A DNA stretch of 64,000 nt from Oscillospiraceae bacterium (GTDB taxonomy: Bacteria > Bacillota > Clostridia > Oscillospirales > CAG-272): positions 1 through 64,000 of the forward strand of contig SVSE01000004.1 in the NCBI GenBank assembly GCA_015064445.1. Reading direction: 5' to 3'. This document shows positions 49,506 through 61,755 of this stretch, piece after piece. A program made the position numbers and the translations under genes. The notes beneath the pieces are model-generated. The model was not told the origin of the DNA and made no database searches. It worked only from the letters and a program-made list of their open reading frames with translations. Every line of letters starts with the position of its first letter. Position 1 is the stretch's first letter.

Positions 49506-50148
49506 CTATTTCGAATTAGTACATTGGTCTATCCTCTTTTTGAATTTTGATTTTCCTATGAGTTAAACTTAGTACATTGGTCTGTCCTCTTTTTCTTTAT
49601 TTTGGTTCTTAATCAAAGATAACTACTTGAAAGCTAAAACCTTGTCCTTTCCCACTTTAAATGCTTGTATTCGGATGAGTTTTATTTCTTTTGTTAAATT
49701 AAAGTAACTACTTGAAGACTTAAAACCTTGACCTTTCTTGTTAAATTCTTATATTCGAATGATATTCAATTTTTAAAGGGTTTTTAGCATAACCGAAATA
49801 CAATTTACCGTTCTCGCTCAAAAATCCTCAATTTCTACTTAAATCTTTTCGATAATAGGCTCTTTGCTTACTGTCTATGGCACGCTCCCATAGCAGTATA
49901 TTCAGTTATGCACTCACTCTGTGGTTCACTTGCCATTGGACCGTACCTCCTTGATAGTCTATATAGCTTCTTACCGATCCTCGCTTTCTCGTCACGAGGG
50001 CTGTTGGAGCTTTCCTTGCGTTTAGAAAGTCCTTCAATCTATATTCACCTTGGGACTTTGGTGAAGCTATAAGAGAGTTATTCTCGAATACCGACTCGCC
50101 CTTGCCCTCCCGGGCGTTGACTCTATCTGGTATTTGCTCTCTCTTTGT
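49477..50148 (-). ncRNA. Candidate large structured non-coding RNA, about 670 nt
   Basis: A complete transcription unit without a credible gene: strong promoter at 50155-50183, intrinsic terminator at 49477-49505, and in between no open frame with a ribosome binding site on either strand. The 5' half is GC-richer with many potential stems (for example CTATGG-GAGCGTG-CCATAG and CCTCG-TGA-CGAG). The 3' half is AT-rich and contains two duplicated modules: one reads TTAGTACATTGGTCT-TCCTCTTTTT on the plus strand at about 49516 and 49569, the other AACTACTTGAA...AAAACCTTG at about 49621 and 49707. The size is in the range of ornate RNAs such as ROOL, OLE and GOLLD, but I cannot assign it to one of them. 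Together with its flanks it fills the 960-bp gap before the beta-CASP gene. Confidence 0.65.
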
Positions 50149-52004: not shown

Positions 52005-52119
52005 GACATAGTCTACACCTCATCCACCGTAAACGGTCCCCCTTCCCCTCCGTTCAAAGGGGAACGCTAAGGCGCTTTGCGAAAAGTACGAGCGAAAAGA
52101 CTATTCCAAGAAGAAATAA
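51957..52119. mobile_element. Palindromic element A1 flanked by a 48-bp duplication of the upstream gene's end
   Basis: The last 48 bp of the beta-CASP gene (51957-52004, ending exactly at TAA) recur at 52072-52119 with two substitutions, both of which would be synonymous (Lys AAA to AAG). Between the copies lies a 67-bp element with hairpins ACCGT-AA-ACGGT and TTCCCCT-CCGTTCA-AGGGGAA, homologous to one half of element A2 at 55123-55239 (shared CTCATCCACC and GGTCCCCCTTCCC). Confidence 0.8.
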
Positions 52120-53599: not shown

Positions 53600-53668
53600 G
53601 CAAATGCAGAATTCGGAGTTCGGAATGCGGAATGAATTAACTTCGCACTTCGCATTTCGCACTTCGCA
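53600..53668. repeat. Low-complexity repeats (GGAATGCGG and ACTTCGC types)
   Basis: Two short-period repeats in a row: AATTCGGAGTTCGGAATGCGG-type units (also present near 62000) and about four copies of the 7-8-mer ACTTCGC(A). No coding potential. Confidence 0.7.
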
Positions 53669-54090
53669 CTTTTCGAGAGCCGAGGTCAAAGAAACAAGCA
53701 AGTCAAGGCGCACCACAGTAGACGGGCGAAGGCTATCTTCGCGATAGTCAAGGTCGGCTACGAGGAGCAACAACACAGAACGAAGCTTATTGGAAGCTGT
53801 CCCATCGACCGTTCAGAACGAGCTAAGCTAGGCTCTGCTTTGTCCTTGGGCGAAGGTGTTCTCGCGAACCCCCAAAACTTACTTCGTGCATTTCGGGGAA
53901 CCCCGAGGCGTGTACTCCAAGGTCAAGTGCGAAGCTAGTAACGACGATTAGCGAAGTTATCAACGGTCAACACTTTTCGAAAGCCGAGGCTAAAGAAACA
54001 AATAAGACAAGGCGCACCACAGGCGACAGACGAAGGCTATCTTTACGATAGTCGAGGTTGTCGGCGAGGAGCAACGCAGTATTATGAGGT
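53669..54090. repeat. Dispersed repeat family B, three modules downstream of trxB
   Basis: Modules a (about 53669-53790) and c (about 53972-54090) are about 75 percent alike by eye and share CAAGGCGCACCACAG, GACGAAGGCTATCTT-like and GAGGAGCAAC blocks. Between them module b (53805-53970) has terminal inverted repeats TCGACCGTTCAGAAC and GTTATCAACGGTCAA that match those of the complete copy at 36003-36121. A hairpin CGAAGGCTATCTT...ACGATAG lies in the middle of a and c. The array ends directly at the trxB stop codon. No open frame of note. Confidence 0.7.
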
Positions 54091-55081: not shown

Positions 55082-55280
55082 AAGGCTTAAACACCAAGAT
55101 ACTTCTTAATGTCGGATACGCCACTTAGGCTTCACCTTGAGGGGAAGCTGTCAACGCAGTTGACTGATGAGGTGTTTTTGTTAAATCTACAACTCATCCA
55201 CCATCAAAGATGGTCCCCCTTCCCTTCCGGTCAAAAGGGAAGGCTTAAACACCAAGATACTTCTTAATGTCGGAAACGCC
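55082..55280. mobile_element. Palindromic element A2 flanked by a 41-bp duplication of the nrdD end
   Basis: The 41 bp at 55240-55280 (last 12 codons and stop of nrdD plus five bases) recur at 55082-55122 with one mismatch, which would be synonymous (Val GTT to GTA). Between them lies a 117-bp element with terminal hairpins (GCTTCACC-TTGA-GGGGAAGC and CCTTCCCTT...AAGGGAAGG) and an internal CAACGCAGTTG stem. The segment AGTTGACTGA and its surroundings match the tail of the DUF559 element at 60399-60533. Confidence 0.85.
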
Positions 55281-57614
55281 TTTATACTTTGAAACATTAC
55301 CGTTTTCAACAACTACGAGAGTTGGAGCTTGGTTAATGCCAAACTTGTCAACGAGCGCCTTGTTTTCAGCAGTTGCAAGAATCTGCTCATACTTAACGCC
55401 TGCCTTATCAAGGAATGTCATTGCGATTTTGCAGTTTGGGCAGGTTGCTGTCTTGAAGAGGTAAATTCCGTTGTCAGAATCGCACTCGCAAGCGTCCTCA
55501 GCCTTTTCCTCAACAACTACGCCATTCTTCTTAAGCTTTGAGGTTTCGATGTTATAAACTGCTCTATCCTTATACTCCTGAGCCTTACCATCATTCCAGT
55601 TCTGAACAGGACGGTAGTAGCCTGTGATACGGCTATAAACCTCTGTCTTTTCGCCACACTCTGGGCAGGTGTAAACCTCGCCTGAGATATATCCGTGGTT
55701 CTTACATACTGAATATGTTGGGGACATTGTATAGTATGGGAGCTTGTAGTTTTCTGCAATCTTGCGAACGAGGTTAGCTGCACTCTTCCAGCTTGGGAGC
55801 TTTTCGCCCAAGAATGCGTGGAATACAGTTCCTGATGTGTAGAGAGTCTGAAGCTCGTCCTGAATGTCAAGAGCTGTGAAGATGTCGTCTGTGTAGCCAA
55901 CTGGCAAGTGTGAAGAGTTTGTATAGTAAGGAGTATCTCCGTTTACGCAAGGAGCTGTGATGATTTCAGGATAGTGCTTCTTATCGTGCTTTGCAAGACG
56001 GTAAGAGGTTGACTCAGCAGGTGTAGCCTCGAGGTTGTAGAGGTCGCCATACTTTTCCTGATAGTCGCTAAGACGCTCTCTCATATGGTTGAGAACATCC
56101 TGTGTGAACTTTTGAGCCTCCTCGTTTGTGAGGTCCTTCTTAATCCACTTAGCGTTGAGACAAGCCTCGTTCATACCAACAAGACCGATTGTGCTAAAGT
56201 GGTTATTGAATGTGCCGAGGTATCTCTTTGTGTATGGATAGAGTCCGTTATCAAGAAGCTTTGTGATAACTGTTCTCTTAACCTTAAGTGAACGAGCAGA
56301 GATATCCATAATCTTGTCAAGACGAGCGTAGAAATCAGCCTCGTTCTCTGCAAGATAAGCAATTCTTGGCATATTGATTGTTACAACACCAACAGAGCCT
56401 GTGCTCTCACCGCTTCCGAAGAAGCCACCGGACTTCTTACGAAGCTCACGAAGGTCAAGACGGAGACGACAGCACATTGAACGAACATCGCTTGGCTCCA
56501 TATCACTGTTGATATAGTTGGAGAAATAAGGTGTACCGTATTTTGCGGTCATTTCGAAGAGGAGCTTGTTATTCTCTGTTTCGCTCCAGTCGAAGTTGCT
56601 TGTAATTGAATAGGTTGGGATAGGATACTGGAAGCCACGGCCATTTGCGTCACCCTCGATCATAATCTCGATAAACGCCTTGTTTACCATGTCCATTTCC
56701 TTCTTACAATCCTTGTACTTGAAGTCAACCTCCTTACCACCGATGATACAGTTGAGCTCAGCCAAGTCAGCAGGAACTACCCAGTCAAGAGTGATGTTGC
56801 TAAATGGAGCCTGTGTTCCCCAACGAGATGGAGTGTTAACACCATAAACGAAGGATTGAATGCACTGCTTAACCTCTTTATATGAAAGGTTATCTATCTT
56901 TACAAATGGAGCAAGGTATGTGTCGAAGGACGAGAATGCCTGTGCGCCCGCCCACTCATTCTGCATAATTCCGAGGAAGTTAACCATCTGGTTGCAGAGT
57001 GTGGAGAGGTGAGATGCAGGAGCAGATGTAATCTTACCTGTTACACCACCAAGTCCCTCTTGGATGAGCTGCTTAAGTGACCATCCTGCACAGTAGCCTG
57101 TGAGCATTGAAAGGTCGTGAATGTGAATGTCTGCGTTTCTGTGTGCCTGTGCGATTTCCTCATCATAAACCTCGCTGAGCCAGTAGTTAGCTGTAATAGC
57201 ACCAGAGTTAGAAAGGATAAGACCACCAACTGAATATGTTACAGTTGAGTTTTCCTTAACACGCCAGTCATTGATTTTAAGATAGTTATCAACAATTTCC
57301 TTGTAGTCAAGAACTGTGTTGTTGATGTTTCTGATCTTTTCTCTTTGCTTTCTGTAAAGGATGTAAGCCTTTGCAATATCGTCATAGCCAGCCTTGATAA
57401 GAACGCTTTCAACGCTGTCCTGAATTTTTTCAACTGAAATTCTATCGTTTTCTACCTTGCTCTCGAAGTCTGCTGTTACCTTGAGTGCCAAGAAATCGAT
57501 GATATCCTGATTGTACTGCTTGCCACAAGCATCGAATGCCATTTTGATAGCATTTGCAATCTTGGAAATGTTAAAGTTTGCGATTTTACCGTCGCGTTTG
57601 ATTACATCATACAT
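55245..57614 (-). CDS. nrdD: Anaerobic ribonucleoside-triphosphate reductase with glutaredoxin-like tail
   Basis: Class III ribonucleotide reductase, a glycyl-radical enzyme that makes deoxynucleotides without oxygen. The 789-residue product has an N-terminal ATP-cone (VIKRDGKIANFNISKIANAI), the alpha/beta barrel, a Cys-rich metal site near the C-terminal core (CKNHGY and CPECGEK) and the glycyl-radical loop SRITGYYRP. Unusually, residues 716-789 form a glutaredoxin/thioredoxin-like domain with the active site CPNC (725-728) and the cis-Pro segment NQAPTLVVV. Together with trxB next door this suggests reduction by NADPH rather than formate, as described for NrdD2-type enzymes. The promoter carries two NrdR-like boxes. 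Confidence 0.96.
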   Translation of the reverse strand: MYDVIKRDGKIANFNISKIANAIKMAFDACGKQYNQDIIDFLALKVTADFESKVENDRISVEKIQDSVESVLIKAGYDDIAKAYILYRKQREKIRNINNTVLDYKEIVDNYLKINDWRVKENSTVTYSVGGLILSNSGAITANYWLSEVYDEEIAQAHRNADIHIHDLSMLTGYCAGWSLKQLIQEGLGGVTGKITSAPASHLSTLCNQMVNFLGIMQNEWAGAQAFSSFDTYLAPFVKIDNLSYKEVKQCIQSFVYGVNTPSRWGTQAPFSNITLDWVVPADLAELNCIIGGKEVDFKYKDCKKEMDMVNKAFIEIMIEGDANGRGFQYPIPTYSITSNFDWSETENNKLLFEMTAKYGTPYFSNYINSDMEPSDVRSMCCRLRLDLRELRKKSGGFFGSGESTGSVGVVTINMPRIAYLAENEADFYARLDKIMDISARSLKVKRTVITKLLDNGLYPYTKRYLGTFNNHFSTIGLVGMNEACLNAKWIKKDLTNEEAQKFTQDVLNHMRERLSDYQEKYGDLYNLEATPAESTSYRLAKHDKKHYPEIITAPCVNGDTPYYTNSSHLPVGYTDDIFTALDIQDELQTLYTSGTVFHAFLGEKLPSWKSAANLVRKIAENYKLPYYTMSPTYSVCKNHGYISGEVYTCPECGEKTEVYSRITGYYRPVQNWNDGKAQEYKDRAVYNIETSKLKKNGVVVEEKAEDACECDSDNGIYLFKTATCPNCKIAMTFLDKAGVKYEQILATAENKALVDKFGINQAPTLVVVENGNVSKYKGVSDIKKYLGV

Positions 57615-57910: not shown

Positions 57911-58597
57911 TTAAATTCCACGGATTTCTGACGACGAAATGTGCTCCAAAGTCGCTTGGCAAAAGGCTTCCAAGGTGTTTTTATCGTGTGCCGAAAAGCC
58001 CTCTCCGATGAGTTCTCCCGACTCGGCAAAGCACTGTATATAGTATTTTTTTGCGCCACTTATCCACTCGGCAATTTTTTTCATATCGTCAAGGGTGTGA
58101 AGCTCCCTTACGACGGTGGTGCGAAACTCGTATTCGACGCCACTGTTTTTTATAATTTCAACGCTTCTCTCAAAGGGGGCAATATCAAGAGCATCTATAC
58201 CTGTTGTGAGGGCATATTTCTCCTTTGAGTTCTTTATATCCATTGCGATATAGTCCACTAAGCCAAGGTCGATTATCTCTTGTAGCTTGTCGGGGTATGC
58301 ACCGTTGGTATCAAGCTTAATTGCAAGTCCGATTTCCTTTATTTTTTTCATAAATGGAATAATATCGCTCTGCAAAAGTGGCTCTCCACCTGTTATACAA
58401 ACACCGTCAAGAATTCCCTTCCTTTTATTTAAATATGAAAGGATTTCATCCTCGGAAAACAGCTCCGTCTTATGTGTTACAAGAGTTGCATTATGGCAAA
58501 ACGGACAACGAAGATTACAGCCATAGGTAAAAATTGTACACGCAATTCTGCCTGGGAAATCAAGCATTGTCATTTTTTGAAGTCCACCGATTTTCAT
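57911..58597 (-). CDS. nrdG: NrdD activating protein (radical SAM)
   Basis: Generates the glycyl radical on NrdD with S-adenosylmethionine and a 4Fe-4S cluster. The 228-residue product has the cluster-binding CNLRCPFC (Cys27, Cys31, Cys34), the SAM-binding GGEPLL and an N-terminal MTMLDFPGRIACTIFTYG region typical of the NrdG2/PflA-like group. It overlaps the upstream MFS gene by four bases, and the nrdD promoter with its NrdR boxes follows directly, so nrdG and nrdD are in separate transcription units in this genome, unlike the usual nrdD-nrdG operon. Confidence 0.94.
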   Translation of the reverse strand: MKIGGLQKMTMLDFPGRIACTIFTYGCNLRCPFCHNATLVTHKTELFSEDEILSYLNKRKGILDGVCITGGEPLLQSDIIPFMKKIKEIGLAIKLDTNGAYPDKLQEIIDLGLVDYIAMDIKNSKEKYALTTGIDALDIAPFERSVEIIKNSGVEYEFRTTVVRELHTLDDMKKIAEWISGAKKYYIQCFAESGELIGEGFSAHDKNTLEAFCQATLEHISSSEIRGI

Positions 58598-59895
58598 TGT
58601 TCGTTCTCCTCTCTTAATTTTATAGCTCGTGGCGATTTTCCACGCTTAACCATTGAAAATGTTACATAAAGCATTGTTAGCATTGTCATCACAAACGCAA
58701 GCGCGCTCAAAAGCTGTTGTGCATATATGCTCATTCCAAAAACAGTGTTTGCATTTTTCTGCACAGCCGACACAATAGGCGATACTGCAAGCGTTGTAAG
58801 GAAGCCACACACGCCTGAGATTGCAAGTGATACTGCGAGTGCGTCCGTGCGCTTGTCAGGTGTTACATAGTCGTAGCAAAGGTTGATTAGTGCGCTATTT
58901 ATTCCACCCATTGCAATCGCGTTTAGAGTGTAGTAAATTGTATATACTACCATTCCGTTTTCAGGACGGCAGAAGGCGTTTACAAGAAAGGCGATGCCTG
59001 CGATTGTAAAGCAGATTTGGAGCATTCTTGCAAAGGAATATTTGTCTGCATATTTTCCCCAAACAAACGAGAAAATTGAGCGTGCAAGCGCGTAAATTGC
59101 GCCAAGAATTGCAACTCCAAACACCGCATCAAAGCCGAGGTCGTTTTCCTTATACGCACCATAGAATGGTGTTGCGCACGCGTTTGAAATCTGCCAAAGG
59201 CAGAAAACGAGAGTTACCTTTAAAACATTCTTGTCCTTTAAGGCATCAAAAATGCTTCCATTTTTGACATTTTCCCTCTCGGCTGGCTTTTCCTGCTCCT
59301 TTTCCACGGTCAAAAGCATTGTTAGCGTGTGGATTACCATAAAGCCAAATATTGAAGCGCCACAAAGAATAAACGCACCTCTTATATTGCCCTGCGCCTC
59401 ATAATGCTCGATAAGTGCGCCCATCGCGAAGTTAAAGGCAACGCCTAAAACAAGCGAGATTACCTCTTTTTTAGCAGTAAAGCGACCTCTTTTTCCGTCG
59501 TCAACAAGTGACATAAGCCAGTTTATCTTTTTTGGATGAACGACATTATAGAAGAAGTACGCAAGCACTATTGTTACAATGAATATTCCCTGCCTTACTC
59601 CCTTGTCCCAGTCGGTCAACGGGATAACATAAAGGAACATAAAAAGAAGCTGATTTAAAACGCTAAACGCAATAACGATAGGCTTTGATTTGCCCCTGCG
59701 CAAAAGCGTAGCAACGAGCTGGAAAAGACAGCCAAGCGAGATAACAGAGGACAAAATTCCCGTTACATTATCGCCTATTCCAAGCGCCTTTGTAAGCCTT
59801 GCAAGGTACATGTCAGCTACAAGAATTGATATTAAATATTCAACGCCCGCCTCAATTATGTACATAAGACGGCCTCTTTTATATAGCTTTTCCAT
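58594..59895 (-). CDS. MFS transporter
   Basis: A 433-residue membrane protein with about 12 predicted helices. The motif after helix 2 is weak, while a second-half motif WGKYADKYSFAR is clear. The family is a major facilitator of unknown substrate, resembling uncharacterised Clostridia transporters. Its last four bases overlap nrdG, and the strong promoter upstream makes it the first gene of an MFS-nrdG unit. A link between the transported compound and ribonucleotide reduction is not evident. Confidence 0.87.
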   Translation of the reverse strand: MEKLYKRGRLMYIIEAGVEYLISILVADMYLARLTKALGIGDNVTGILSSVISLGCLFQLVATLLRRGKSKPIVIAFSVLNQLLFMFLYVIPLTDWDKGVRQGIFIVTIVLAYFFYNVVHPKKINWLMSLVDDGKRGRFTAKKEVISLVLGVAFNFAMGALIEHYEAQGNIRGAFILCGASIFGFMVIHTLTMLLTVEKEQEKPAERENVKNGSIFDALKDKNVLKVTLVFCLWQISNACATPFYGAYKENDLGFDAVFGVAILGAIYALARSIFSFVWGKYADKYSFARMLQICFTIAGIAFLVNAFCRPENGMVVYTIYYTLNAIAMGGINSALINLCYDYVTPDKRTDALAVSLAISGVCGFLTTLAVSPIVSAVQKNANTVFGMSIYAQQLLSALAFVMTMLTMLYVTFSMVKRGKSPRAIKLREENEQ

Positions 59896-59927: not shown

Positions 59928-59956
59928 ATTTTAACAGTAGCGCACCGTTTTGTCAA
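59928..59956 (-). promoter_or_regulatory. Promoter of the MFS-nrdG unit
   Basis: On the minus strand TTGACA (59951-59956), 17 bp, TAAAAT (59928-59933). The -35 lies inside the left 47-bp direct repeat of element A3. Confidence 0.75.
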
Positions 59957-60035
59957 TAAGAAAAAGCAAGCTTTCGCTTGCTTTTGTCTTTATTTTGGGC
60001 TATACTTAATATAGAAAGGGCTTGGAGGTTTGGAA

Positions 60036-60398
60036 ATGTCACTTAAGTATAATAAAAGGAACATAATCTTGGCGAAAAATCTGCGTAAAAATGCAACGCC
60101 TCAAGAAAAGCGATTGTGGTATGATTTTCTATCAAAATACGAGATAAAATTCCAACGACAAAAGGCAATTGACGACTTCATTGTTGACTTTTATTGTCAC
60201 AGGGCAAGACTAATCATTGAAATTGATGGCTCACAGCATTACAGCGAAAAAGGCGTTATAAGCGATAGCCTTCGCACTGAAATTCTTGGTGGGTACAGCT
60301 TAAAGGTAATCCGATTCACCAATCATCAAATCGACACGTGCTTTCAAGCAGTATGCGCATATATAGACCAAGTGGTAAAATCCTCGCTTCAAGACTAA
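60036..60398 (+). CDS. DUF559 (Vsr-like) endonuclease domain protein
   Basis: A 120-residue protein of the DUF559 family, which belongs to the PD-(D/E)XK nuclease superfamily near very-short-patch repair (Vsr) endonucleases. Visible features are the N-terminal A-K-N-L-R-K-N-A-T-P-Q-E basic segment with the conserved LWYDFL, the family-typical F-Q-R-Q-K, and the catalytic core VDFYC...LIIEIDGSQH with Asp51, Glu62, Asp64 and His68. The start is ATG 60036 after GGAGG. A possible promoter (TTGCTT, 17 bp, TATACT at 59978-60006) has its -35 inside the direct repeat. The gene is the only one inside the element and is the obvious candidate for its mobility enzyme. Confidence 0.85.
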   Translation: MSLKYNKRNIILAKNLRKNATPQEKRLWYDFLSKYEIKFQRQKAIDDFIVDFYCHRARLIIEIDGSQHYSEKGVISDSLRTEILGGYSLKVIRFTNHQIDTCFQAVCAYIDQVVKSSLQD

Positions 60399-60545
60399 TC
60401 AAGCTCTTGCCTCCCTCCGAGAGGGAGGTGGATTGCATAGCAAGACGGAAGGAGCCTGCGTTGGTTTGATTTTCTTAAGCGCACTCTCCTTCAGTCAACT
60501 TCGTTGCCAGCTCCCTCCCAGAGGGAGCCTTTATTGTCAATAAGA

Positions 60546-60569
60546 AAAAGCAAGCTTTCGCTTGCTTTT
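60546..60569. terminator. Terminator of the zinc-ribbon gene (right copy of the direct repeat)
   Basis: AAAAGCAAGC-TTTC-GCTTGCTTTT, five bases beyond the stop codon on the minus strand. An exact copy lies at 59962-59985 because of the duplication. Confidence 0.9.
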
Positions 60570-60573
60570 GTCT

Positions 60574-61755
60574 TTATTTTTTCAAGCTCTTGAAGGGATT
60601 GTTCATAGGATCGAGTGATTCGAGGTAGTTGTAGTATTTTACAAAGCCAAGACCATCGAAGTTTGCGCCGATTCCCTCGAGCTCAATGCATCTGCCAAGG
60701 TAGTAAACAATTCTTCTTACCTCAATTGTAACAGCCTTAACTGCTGCGTTCTCTCTTGCCTGCTCTGGAGTTATTGTAGGCTCCTCTGGCTCGCCATCCT
60801 CATCCACGCTTTCGTCCTCGCTGGACTCTTCCTCGCTTGACTCCTCCTCGCTTGAGGATTCTTCCTCATCGCTTGATGACTCTTCCTCGTCAGGATTTTC
60901 TCCCTCAAGGTCCTCCTCTGGAGTCTCCTCCTCAACCTCTTCCTTAATTTGAGTTACGATTTCAACGCTCCAAGCGCCCTGCTCATCAGTTGCGGTAAAG
61001 GTTGATGGATCAAATGTGCCATAATATGTGTAGTCAAAGTCGTATCTTGAGTCAACTACATTGTCGCCTGTATAGGACATTCTATATTCCCAAAGCGCTT
61101 CCGTTGGAGTGCTTTCGTTTATCTCCATTACAATTCTATTGTAAAGGCCCTCTGCCTCTACCTCATAGATAAGATAGAAGGTGTCGGTTGCGTCCTCGAG
61201 ACAGCAGAGGTAATAGCCCTCTGTAAGCTCATAAACATATCTATTATAGTCGTCAGGCAAGGTAACTCTTCTTGGTGGAAGCTCCTCCTCGCTTGTCTGC
61301 TCTCCCTCAGTTGACTCGCCCTCGGTTTCGCTGTCAACAGAGCTTTCCTCGTCAGTTGAGGATTCAGATTCGCTTGAGGATTCCTCTGAGGATTCCTCAT
61401 CGGTCGAGGACTCCTCGCCCTCTACGCTTTCCTCCTCATCAGGCACAGGTGCTTCAATAAACTCGCCCTCCTCCTGAATAAACTCGATCACCTTCGAAAA
61501 GTCACTCTTGGTTATTGCCTTAACAATAAAGAAAACTGCAATTGCAATTACGAGCAAGATGCCAAGCACGATGCCAGCCTTGATTGCACTCTTTATCCAA
61601 AACTTCTTTCTCTTTGCCTTTTTCTCGTTGGCAAATGGGTCTTCCTCAGTGTAGGTGTGTCCACAATGCAAGCAAAAATCCTTGCCCTCGTCAAGAGGCT
61701 TCTTGCAATAGTGGCACTTTCTTATAACCACCTTTTCCTTTTTTTCCTTAGCCAT
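60574..61755 (-). CDS. Membrane protein with zinc ribbon and Ser/Glu-rich extracellular linkers
   Basis: A 393-residue protein. The N terminus holds a zinc ribbon (CHYC and CLHC, about residues 14-32), then a basic stretch, one membrane helix (about 57-78), a Ser/Glu/Asp-rich linker (about 98-160), a beta-rich domain (about 165-280), a second Ser/Glu-rich linker and a helical C-terminal segment. Zinc ribbon inside and repetitive acidic linkers outside is a layout seen in uncharacterised Clostridia surface proteins. Function unknown. It has its own promoter. Its terminator and stop codon are part of the duplicated sequence of element A3. Confidence 0.83.
   Translation of the reverse strand: MAKEKKEKVVIRKCHYCKKPLDEGKDFCLHCGHTYTEEDPFANEKKAKRKKFWIKSAIKAGIVLGILLVIAIAVFFIVKAITKSDFSKVIEFIQEEGEFIEAPVPDEEESVEGEESSTDEESSEESSSESESSTDEESSVDSETEGESTEGEQTSEEELPPRRVTLPDDYNRYVYELTEGYYLCCLEDATDTFYLIYEVEAEGLYNRIVMEINESTPTEALWEYRMSYTGDNVVDSRYDFDYTYYGTFDPSTFTATDEQGAWSVEIVTQIKEEVEEETPEEDLEGENPDEEESSSDEEESSSEEESSEEESSEDESVDEDGEPEEPTITPEQARENAAVKAVTIEVRRIVYYLGRCIELEGIGANFDGLGFVKYYNYLESLDPMNNPFKSLKK

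Follow-up and report, generated by a model that had tools for sequence, protein, structure and literature searches.

Among the described systems closest to the one considered here are the repetitive extragenic palindromes (REPs) and their REP-associated tyrosine transposases (RAYTs; TnpA-REP, or 'REPtron'). As set out in one account (PMC8266576), the palindromes of these systems are extragenic, have a nuclease gene associated with them, vary together with that nuclease, and also occur as copies without the gene. The same features recur in an element found in a 64,000-nt stretch of DNA from an Oscillospiraceae bacterium (positions 1-64,000 of contig SVSE01000004.1, hereafter termed the window). 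RAYTs, however, belong to the HUH enzymes and are relatives of the IS200/IS605 transposases, whereas this element has as its only gene a nuclease of the PD-(D/E)XK fold, belonging to the DUF559 family, and is accompanied by long target duplications. We favor, with a probability of about 0.57, the view that it represents a family of small mobile elements that are copied in by repair after staggered nicking of the target and are built from hairpin arms, to which the autonomous form adds one Vsr-like DUF559 nuclease gene. In the cases examined, insertions carry long target duplications and prefer the 3' ends of genes, and gene-less arms are inserted in the same way as the gene-bearing element. 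We infer that DUF559 performs the cutting and has a causal role in insertion.

In the window, an exact direct repeat (47/47 nt; 59950-59996 and 60534-60580) brackets a 537-bp insert whose sole gene, among open reading frames (ORFs) of at least 60 residues, is DUF559, followed by a tail with two hairpins (Table 1); sequence, PF04480 match and hairpin positions all bear out this part of the original prediction. The repeat has at one edge the stop codon of the gene at 60574-61755, which is on the minus strand, and at the other a -35-like TTGACA in front of the adjacent major facilitator superfamily (MFS) transporter gene, and the hairpin it contains was scored as terminator-like on both strands in a terminator scan. 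In another genome of the same genus (G021, locus L213), homologues of both flanking genes (36% and 68% protein identity) adjoin, and the space between them holds a single terminator but no insert. Because this site is empty, the second 47-nt copy is derived, and the repeat in the window is a true target duplication. A further empty site corresponds to the gene-less insert at 55123-55239: in G007 (L193) the sequence past a single copy of the nrdD end matches the window past its distal copy. When each genome was scanned with its own nrdD end as query (an earlier scan had detected the first copy in just 6 of 19), none of the 19 same-genus nrdD loci had a second copy within 867 nt, the window's own genome serving as positive control. 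The search for empty sites that had been suggested as a check was thus rewarded at both insertions.

The two gene-less inserts of the window, at 52005-52071 and 55123-55239, had been proposed as relatives of the DUF559 tail. Both are present, and they resemble the tail in arm architecture and, by eye, in arm sequence (e.g., CATCAGTCAACTGCGTTGACAGCTTCCCC versus CTTCAGTCAACTTCGTTGCCAGCTCCCTC); a search with the DUF559 insert matched neither of them at E values up to 1, nor did one with 55123-55239 match the tail at E up to 0.01, so that the proposal stands for architecture and visible likeness but not for similarity detectable by sequence search. A repeat scan blind to palindromes recovered, in the 444,510 bases of the window's own genome, seven gene-less palindromic inserts and the DUF559 insert, each with repeats of 36-64 nt; these were picked by reading from a longer list that also contained coding and other repeats. 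Arms defined by a sequence pattern, in relatives and in the same genome, occupied 97 places, 60 of them with enough flank. Bracketing repeats occurred at 22/60 of these arms versus 3/295 random positions; at least 4 of the 22 contain arm sequence (L278, L294 and two on contig C7 of the window's genome), and with four arm-like repeats removed the comparison is 18/60 versus 3/295 (p 1e-12). Either count, like the genome scan, supports insertion of the gene-less palindromes in the same manner as the gene-bearing element. As a separate observation, a 147-bp unit comprising target and palindrome is tandemly repeated at G000:C7 154264-154584 (L191).

Arm numbers also follow the nuclease. Over 29 genomes of the genus, with kinship among them ignored, arm count correlated with the number of DUF559 copies (Spearman 0.59, p 7e-4); its correlation with the number of Y1 transposase copies was 0.12 and not significant. 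The 20 genomes with DUF559 hold 92 arms versus 6 in the 9 without (one-sided Mann-Whitney p 0.004). Y1_Tnp (PF01797, the RAYT type) had no match in the window's own genome, which is 97.3% complete, and the reverse transcriptase profile RVT_1 had none in 26 of the 29 genomes, that of the window included, and matched in the other three.

The association of DUF559 genes with arms and repeats was assessed at 150 loci, comprising 70 left from 78 matches after eight short fragments were excluded and the best 80 of 237 relatives. Removal of 31 redundant loci left 119, with enough downstream DNA for the arm test at 112, enough flank for the repeat test at 109, and 100 in the Mantel test. Direct repeats of at least 30 nt bracket the gene at 40/109 loci versus 1/247 control ORFs. 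A filter for host-derived repeats was passed by 34/109 versus 0/247 (Fisher 5e-20), and 15 of these 34 were clean upon reading (15/109 versus 0/247, p 1e-8); by class, 4/34 close relatives and 30/75 others pass the filter. An arm motif, strict enough to miss known cases such as L037, was found downstream of the gene at 59/112 loci versus 17/220 control ORFs of the same loci, upstream at 55/119 versus 11/220, and on both sides at 28/112 versus 1/220. Both of the associations by which the original prediction was to be judged, with palindromes and with flanking duplications, are therefore found. Moreover, similarity within the 200 nt downstream tracks protein identity (Mantel r 0.37, p 0.002; 100 loci, 4947 of 4950 pairs), in keeping with the palindrome-nuclease co-variation of REP/RAYT systems, whereas flanks at a distance of 400-600 nt show no such trend (r 0.018, p 0.15). 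Since arm similarity follows protein identity and the outer flanks do not, the DUF559 gene together with its arm is the unit that travels. At L164 (AP024096.1, a complete Ktedonobacteria genome), a DUF559 gene also lies between palindromic repeats, and the association may extend beyond Clostridia.

Two layouts of the element were recognized. In relatives of a terminal inverted repeat (TIR) type, mostly at 40-60% protein identity, the gene lies between two inverted arms (e.g., L034). Each arm, of about 47 nt, has two hairpins, the outer one reading, e.g., GCCTCC...GGGAGG and the inner one GTCAAC...GTTGAC, together with a stretch of GGAGGGAG or GGATGAG, and the gene-side arm appears to supply the Shine-Dalgarno sequence of the DUF559 gene. 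In close relatives (70-77%), as judged by reading, a pair of arms lies downstream in 17 of 19 examined, and in many a promoter-like -10 box upstream of the gene adjoins another hairpin. The window copy resembles these close relatives; the terminal inverted repeats present at TIR-type loci are absent on its left, and because its sequence begins at the -10 box it looks truncated on that side. Its gene probably occupies 60038-60398, since an ATG at 60038 preceded by GGAGG agrees with the starts of relatives, rather than beginning at the listed TTG at 60030. The upstream neighbor is co-directional at 56 of 73 loci below 64% identity and at 21 of 35 close loci.

Duplication length was measured in 36 hand-chosen cases: 9 from the stretches, 13 of the 22 arm sites and 14 of the 34 filtered DUF559 loci, the other 20 having been set aside as arm-dominated (17), mixed (2) or already entered as the window case (L022). 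Lengths range from 26 to 134 nt with a median of 59 (gene-less inserts 26-85, n=21; gene-bearing ones, window included, 39-134, n=15); a few of the measured duplications contain some arm sequence (L033, L053). In 29 cases an ORF of at least 100 codons ends nearby, and in 25 of them the 3' edge of the duplication, in the sense of the gene, lies within 100 nt of the end of the stop codon. In 10 of these 25 the distance is at most 3 nt (p 5e-9 versus a uniform spread), as compared with 2/29 for the 5' edge. Two further duplications, at 113930 on contig C12 of the window's genome and at L083, end exactly at the stop of a shorter ORF; the longest-ORF rule misreads both, and the count was left at 10. 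The window duplication falls outside this cluster, its stop codon being at the other edge. Half elements with an edge within 15 nt of a stop codon, counted by reading, have the outer end pointing away from the gene in ten instances and the opposite in one, a tandem array on C7 (sign test p 0.012).

Some gene ends have been targeted repeatedly. The mnmG end is used in both G022 and G026, where the duplications (74 versus 47 nt) and the inserts differ and the edges lie 1 nt apart; other recurrent targets are the ends of dnaJ, in two species, and, in three species each, of a sensor kinase whose best match is PhoR and of a gene that we take to be nadE from recognition of its protein end. The paired nadE repeats match at 101/102, 93/102 and 89/89 (of 102) positions within a genome and at 71-80% between genomes, and at this site the DUF559 of L037 and that of L058 are 89% alike, versus 82% for the gene. 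In this the repeats go with the host gene rather than with the element. Because they are more alike within genomes than between them, they point to recent duplication in each genome, or else to conversion between copies. Separately, downstream of the DUF559 gene at L083 there are three copies of one gene end, split by the DUF559 element and a half element of another arm type, and the third copy is followed by one more half element; this array is best read as serial insertions at one stop codon.

The window ORF matches PF04480 at E 7e-27 (93.9 bits versus a gathering score of 20.6), and the residues invariant in an alignment of 43 DUF559 proteins include D53, E64, D66, Q69 and H70, which would fit an active enzyme. 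Its predicted structure (predicted local distance difference test score, pLDDT, 84.7) matches NGO0050 (3hrl), the catalytic domain of I-Bth0305I, and Vsr, and in the profile search the hits include 3hrl at E 5e-18 and, at E 0.016, 3r3p (I-Bth0305I). Profile and structure comparison, the latter with a confident model of the Vsr/I-Bth0305I nuclease fold, thus agree that DUF559 shares its fold with a mismatch-nicking endonuclease and a homing endonuclease. According to a review (PMC3943268), I-Bth0305I forms a dimer on its target, which measures nearly 60 bp; that the median duplication, at 59 nt, comes close to this figure is no more than suggestive. A report on Caulobacter (PMC12907096) has the DNA-damage response of mutants in the methyltransferase gene scmA depend on the DUF559 protein VsrA. 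In-frame stops occur in three DUF559 matches, within the coding stretch in L119 and L124 and near the start in L167, and these are possibly decaying mobile genes.

Table 1. Coordinates of the window locus, its gene-less counterparts and related inserts in the same genome.
Feature	Position	Strand	Basis
Direct repeat copy 1, target-site duplication; terminator hairpin 59962-59985	59950..59996		Exact match to copy 2
Insert left end: -10-like TATACT and Shine-Dalgarno GGAGG, without palindromic arm	59997..60037	+	Sequence
DUF559 (PF04480) nuclease gene, Vsr / I-Bth0305I fold	60038..60398	+	
Tail palindromic arm 1, hairpin 60410-60428	60409..60453		Sequence; similar tail sequence elsewhere in genome
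Tail palindromic arm 2, outer end; hairpin 60510-60528 (8-pair stem), then C and TTTA	60484..60533		Hairpin scan; similar tail sequence elsewhere in genome
Direct repeat copy 2, target-site duplication	60534..60580		Exact match to copy 1
Target-side gene; its stop codon and terminator fall within the duplication	60574..61755	-	Homologue (36% identity) beside MFS gene in G021
MFS transporter; -35-like TTGACA before the gene at far edge of duplication	58594..59895	-	
Gene-less palindromic insert 55123-55239; 41-nt duplication (40/41) of nrdD 3' end	55082..55280		Repeat scan; empty site G007/L193
Gene-less half element 52005-52071; 48-nt duplication (46/48) ending exactly at stop codon TAA	51957..52119		Repeat scan
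Palindromic inserts of the window's genome	C1: 51957, 55082, 59950; C12: 48730, 99912, 113930, 147877, 165292		Repeat scan

The window holds other features of a repetitive or coding nature. A 105-nt repeat family of a different type (53667-53771 and 53971-54075, 84% alike) lies in a long intergenic region and appears by eye to be related to repeats at C1 157759 and C12 134917. The NrdD protein encoded at 55245-57614 has a weak glutaredoxin-like match at its C-terminus. A 26-nt repeat, 96% alike and with 53-nt spacing, at 49516-49594 is possibly a remnant of the same process.

A plausible course of insertion can be outlined. The DUF559 nuclease, probably as a dimer or by acting twice, would nick opposite strands of the target tens of bases apart, with one nick close to the stop codon; the long single-stranded ends would then be filled in, and filling of both would leave the long duplication, which would often spare the coding end of the gene that is hit. 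The element would be joined in as a copy, by copying of the arm from its outer end, often just to the middle of the palindrome, giving rise to half elements, and gene-less palindromes would be the non-autonomous products. Half elements that stop mid-palindrome, ragged joins and the prevailing polarity are more in line with repair synthesis as the copying process than with cut-and-paste transposition.

In an alternative account, DUF559 would be a free-standing homing-type endonuclease riding in or near the palindromes, which would be moved, and their targets duplicated, by something else, whether a transposase acting in trans or the replication and repair of the host. DUF559 folds like the EDxHD homing endonuclease I-Bth0305I; three species have the 3' end of nadE occupied, as expected of a site-specific endonuclease; palindromes are present in some genomes with no DUF559 match; and repeats are rare among close relatives of the window gene. 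Yet arms and gene vary together, and homing copies flanking alleles, with which fresh target duplications are not expected; the agreement of nadE repeats within genomes argues for such duplications, although conversion between the copies could also produce it. The window's genome, moreover, has no Y1 gene, and arm counts do not track Y1 (DDE transposases were not searched for). We consider this account unlikely, and rather more so one in which fork stalling and template switching at palindromes copy palindrome and target with no dedicated enzyme, DUF559 being a passenger. The variable duplications of 26-134 nt, ragged ends, half elements and tandem arrays of target and element (L083 and C7) do resemble the outcome of repair synthesis, and breaks with complementary 3' protrusions are described, in a study of mammalian cells (PMC8355091), as yielding small tandem duplications; the ties of DUF559 to arms, to bracketing repeats and to arm number, and the clustering of one duplication edge at stop codons, speak against it. 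Assembly artefact or chance repetition is scarcely credible: assembly can create exact repeats, and the G genomes are mostly drafts, but many repeat pairs carry substitutions (46/48, 45/47, 126/134), empty sites exist, and like structures occur in many separate genomes.

Several observations nevertheless weigh against a nuclease-driven mobile element. The insert in the window lacks a left-hand palindromic arm, and of the 34 close relatives (at least 64% identity, window included) that were assessed, the window alone is clean among the four passing the repeat filter. No repeat of any kind was found at 69 of the 109 DUF559 genes and at 38 of the 60 arms; on reading, arm sequence dominates 17 of the 34 repeats that passed the filter, and 2 more are mixed. 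At 3 of the 19 nrdD loci (L203, L207, L209) other palindromes follow nrdD without a duplicated nrdD end. The ends of the elements are blurred, with 0 to more than 20 nt extra between arm and repeat (e.g., L314), unlike ends made by a transposase. Of the nine genomes of the genus with no DUF559 match, which are 63-90% complete, four hold 1-3 arms each, 6 in all, and kinship is left out of the correlation between arm and DUF559 numbers. Clustering at stop codons may mix targeting with selection, and the cases were chosen by hand. The named loci are nearly all metagenome-assembled, and no clean host duplication was found in a complete isolate genome; the repeat of the complete L164 (63/65) is about two-thirds arm-like. 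Of the mobile DUF559-palindrome element originally proposed, then, the empty sites, the long duplications elsewhere and the linkage of arm and gene give partial support, while the missing left arm of the window copy and the rarity of repeats among its close relatives count against a simple version.

Should the nuclease-driven element prove correct, a lineage common in gut and rumen would have elements in which a Vsr/homing-type nuclease does the work otherwise done by a transposase, an integrase or a reverse transcriptase. One class of extragenic palindromes would thereby be accounted for, many DUF559 genes would gain a function, a route would be known for insertion at gene ends without gene loss, and there would be a small test case for the production of long duplications from staggered nicks in bacteria. 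A more specific claim, to which we give a little less than an even chance, is that these are a new class of transposase-free element, needing no more than a hairpin arm and a Vsr-like nickase of 120 residues: the nickase would recognize gene 3' ends, or a state of the DNA at translation stops, and nick 25-130 nt apart, host repair copying the arm from its outer end. On this reading the coding end of the target would often survive intact, and even essential genes could be entered at their stop codons.

Nuclease-linked palindromes with long duplications, as seen in these gut and rumen Clostridia, match no mobile element that we found described. In place of the Y1 transposase (PF01797) encoded with palindromes in REP/RAYT systems, the gene in the insert is DUF559. 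I-Bth0305I (PDB 3r3p) is the homing endonuclease of a mobile intron, and homing would entail copying into a cognate allele with no target duplication; the DUF559 element, by contrast, has hairpin arms, and its inserts are flanked by duplicated host sequence. The Vsr very-short-patch repair endonuclease, PRK09767 (presumably E. coli YcjD), NGO0050 (3hrl) and Caulobacter VsrA share fold and family with the window protein, but their roles lie in repair or are unassigned, and no mobile element is evident in the titles and abstract openings of literature naming DUF559. Insertion sequence (IS) elements and miniature inverted-repeat transposable elements (MITEs) likewise have non-autonomous copies and target duplications, and they have terminal inverted repeats, which are present at TIR-type DUF559 loci and absent from the left of the window copy; they depend on a transposase, with a short duplication of fixed length in DDE types, whereas the DUF559 element has none inside it (DDE transposases elsewhere in the genome were not searched for) and its duplications vary from 26 to 134 nt. 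Within the IS1202 family, groups with target duplications of 3-5, more than 15 or 0 bp are distinguished in PMC10132070. Target-primed retrotransposons of the long interspersed nuclear element (LINE) type need a reverse transcriptase, for which the window's genome has no RVT_1 match. In the integration of CRISPR (clustered regularly interspaced short palindromic repeats) spacers and of casposons, opposite strands are attacked at staggered positions tens of bases from each other, with duplication of a stretch of repeat length; the process envisaged for DUF559 would share this staggered attack, whereas those systems have Cas1 enzymology (Cas1 was not searched for here) and a fixed site and length.
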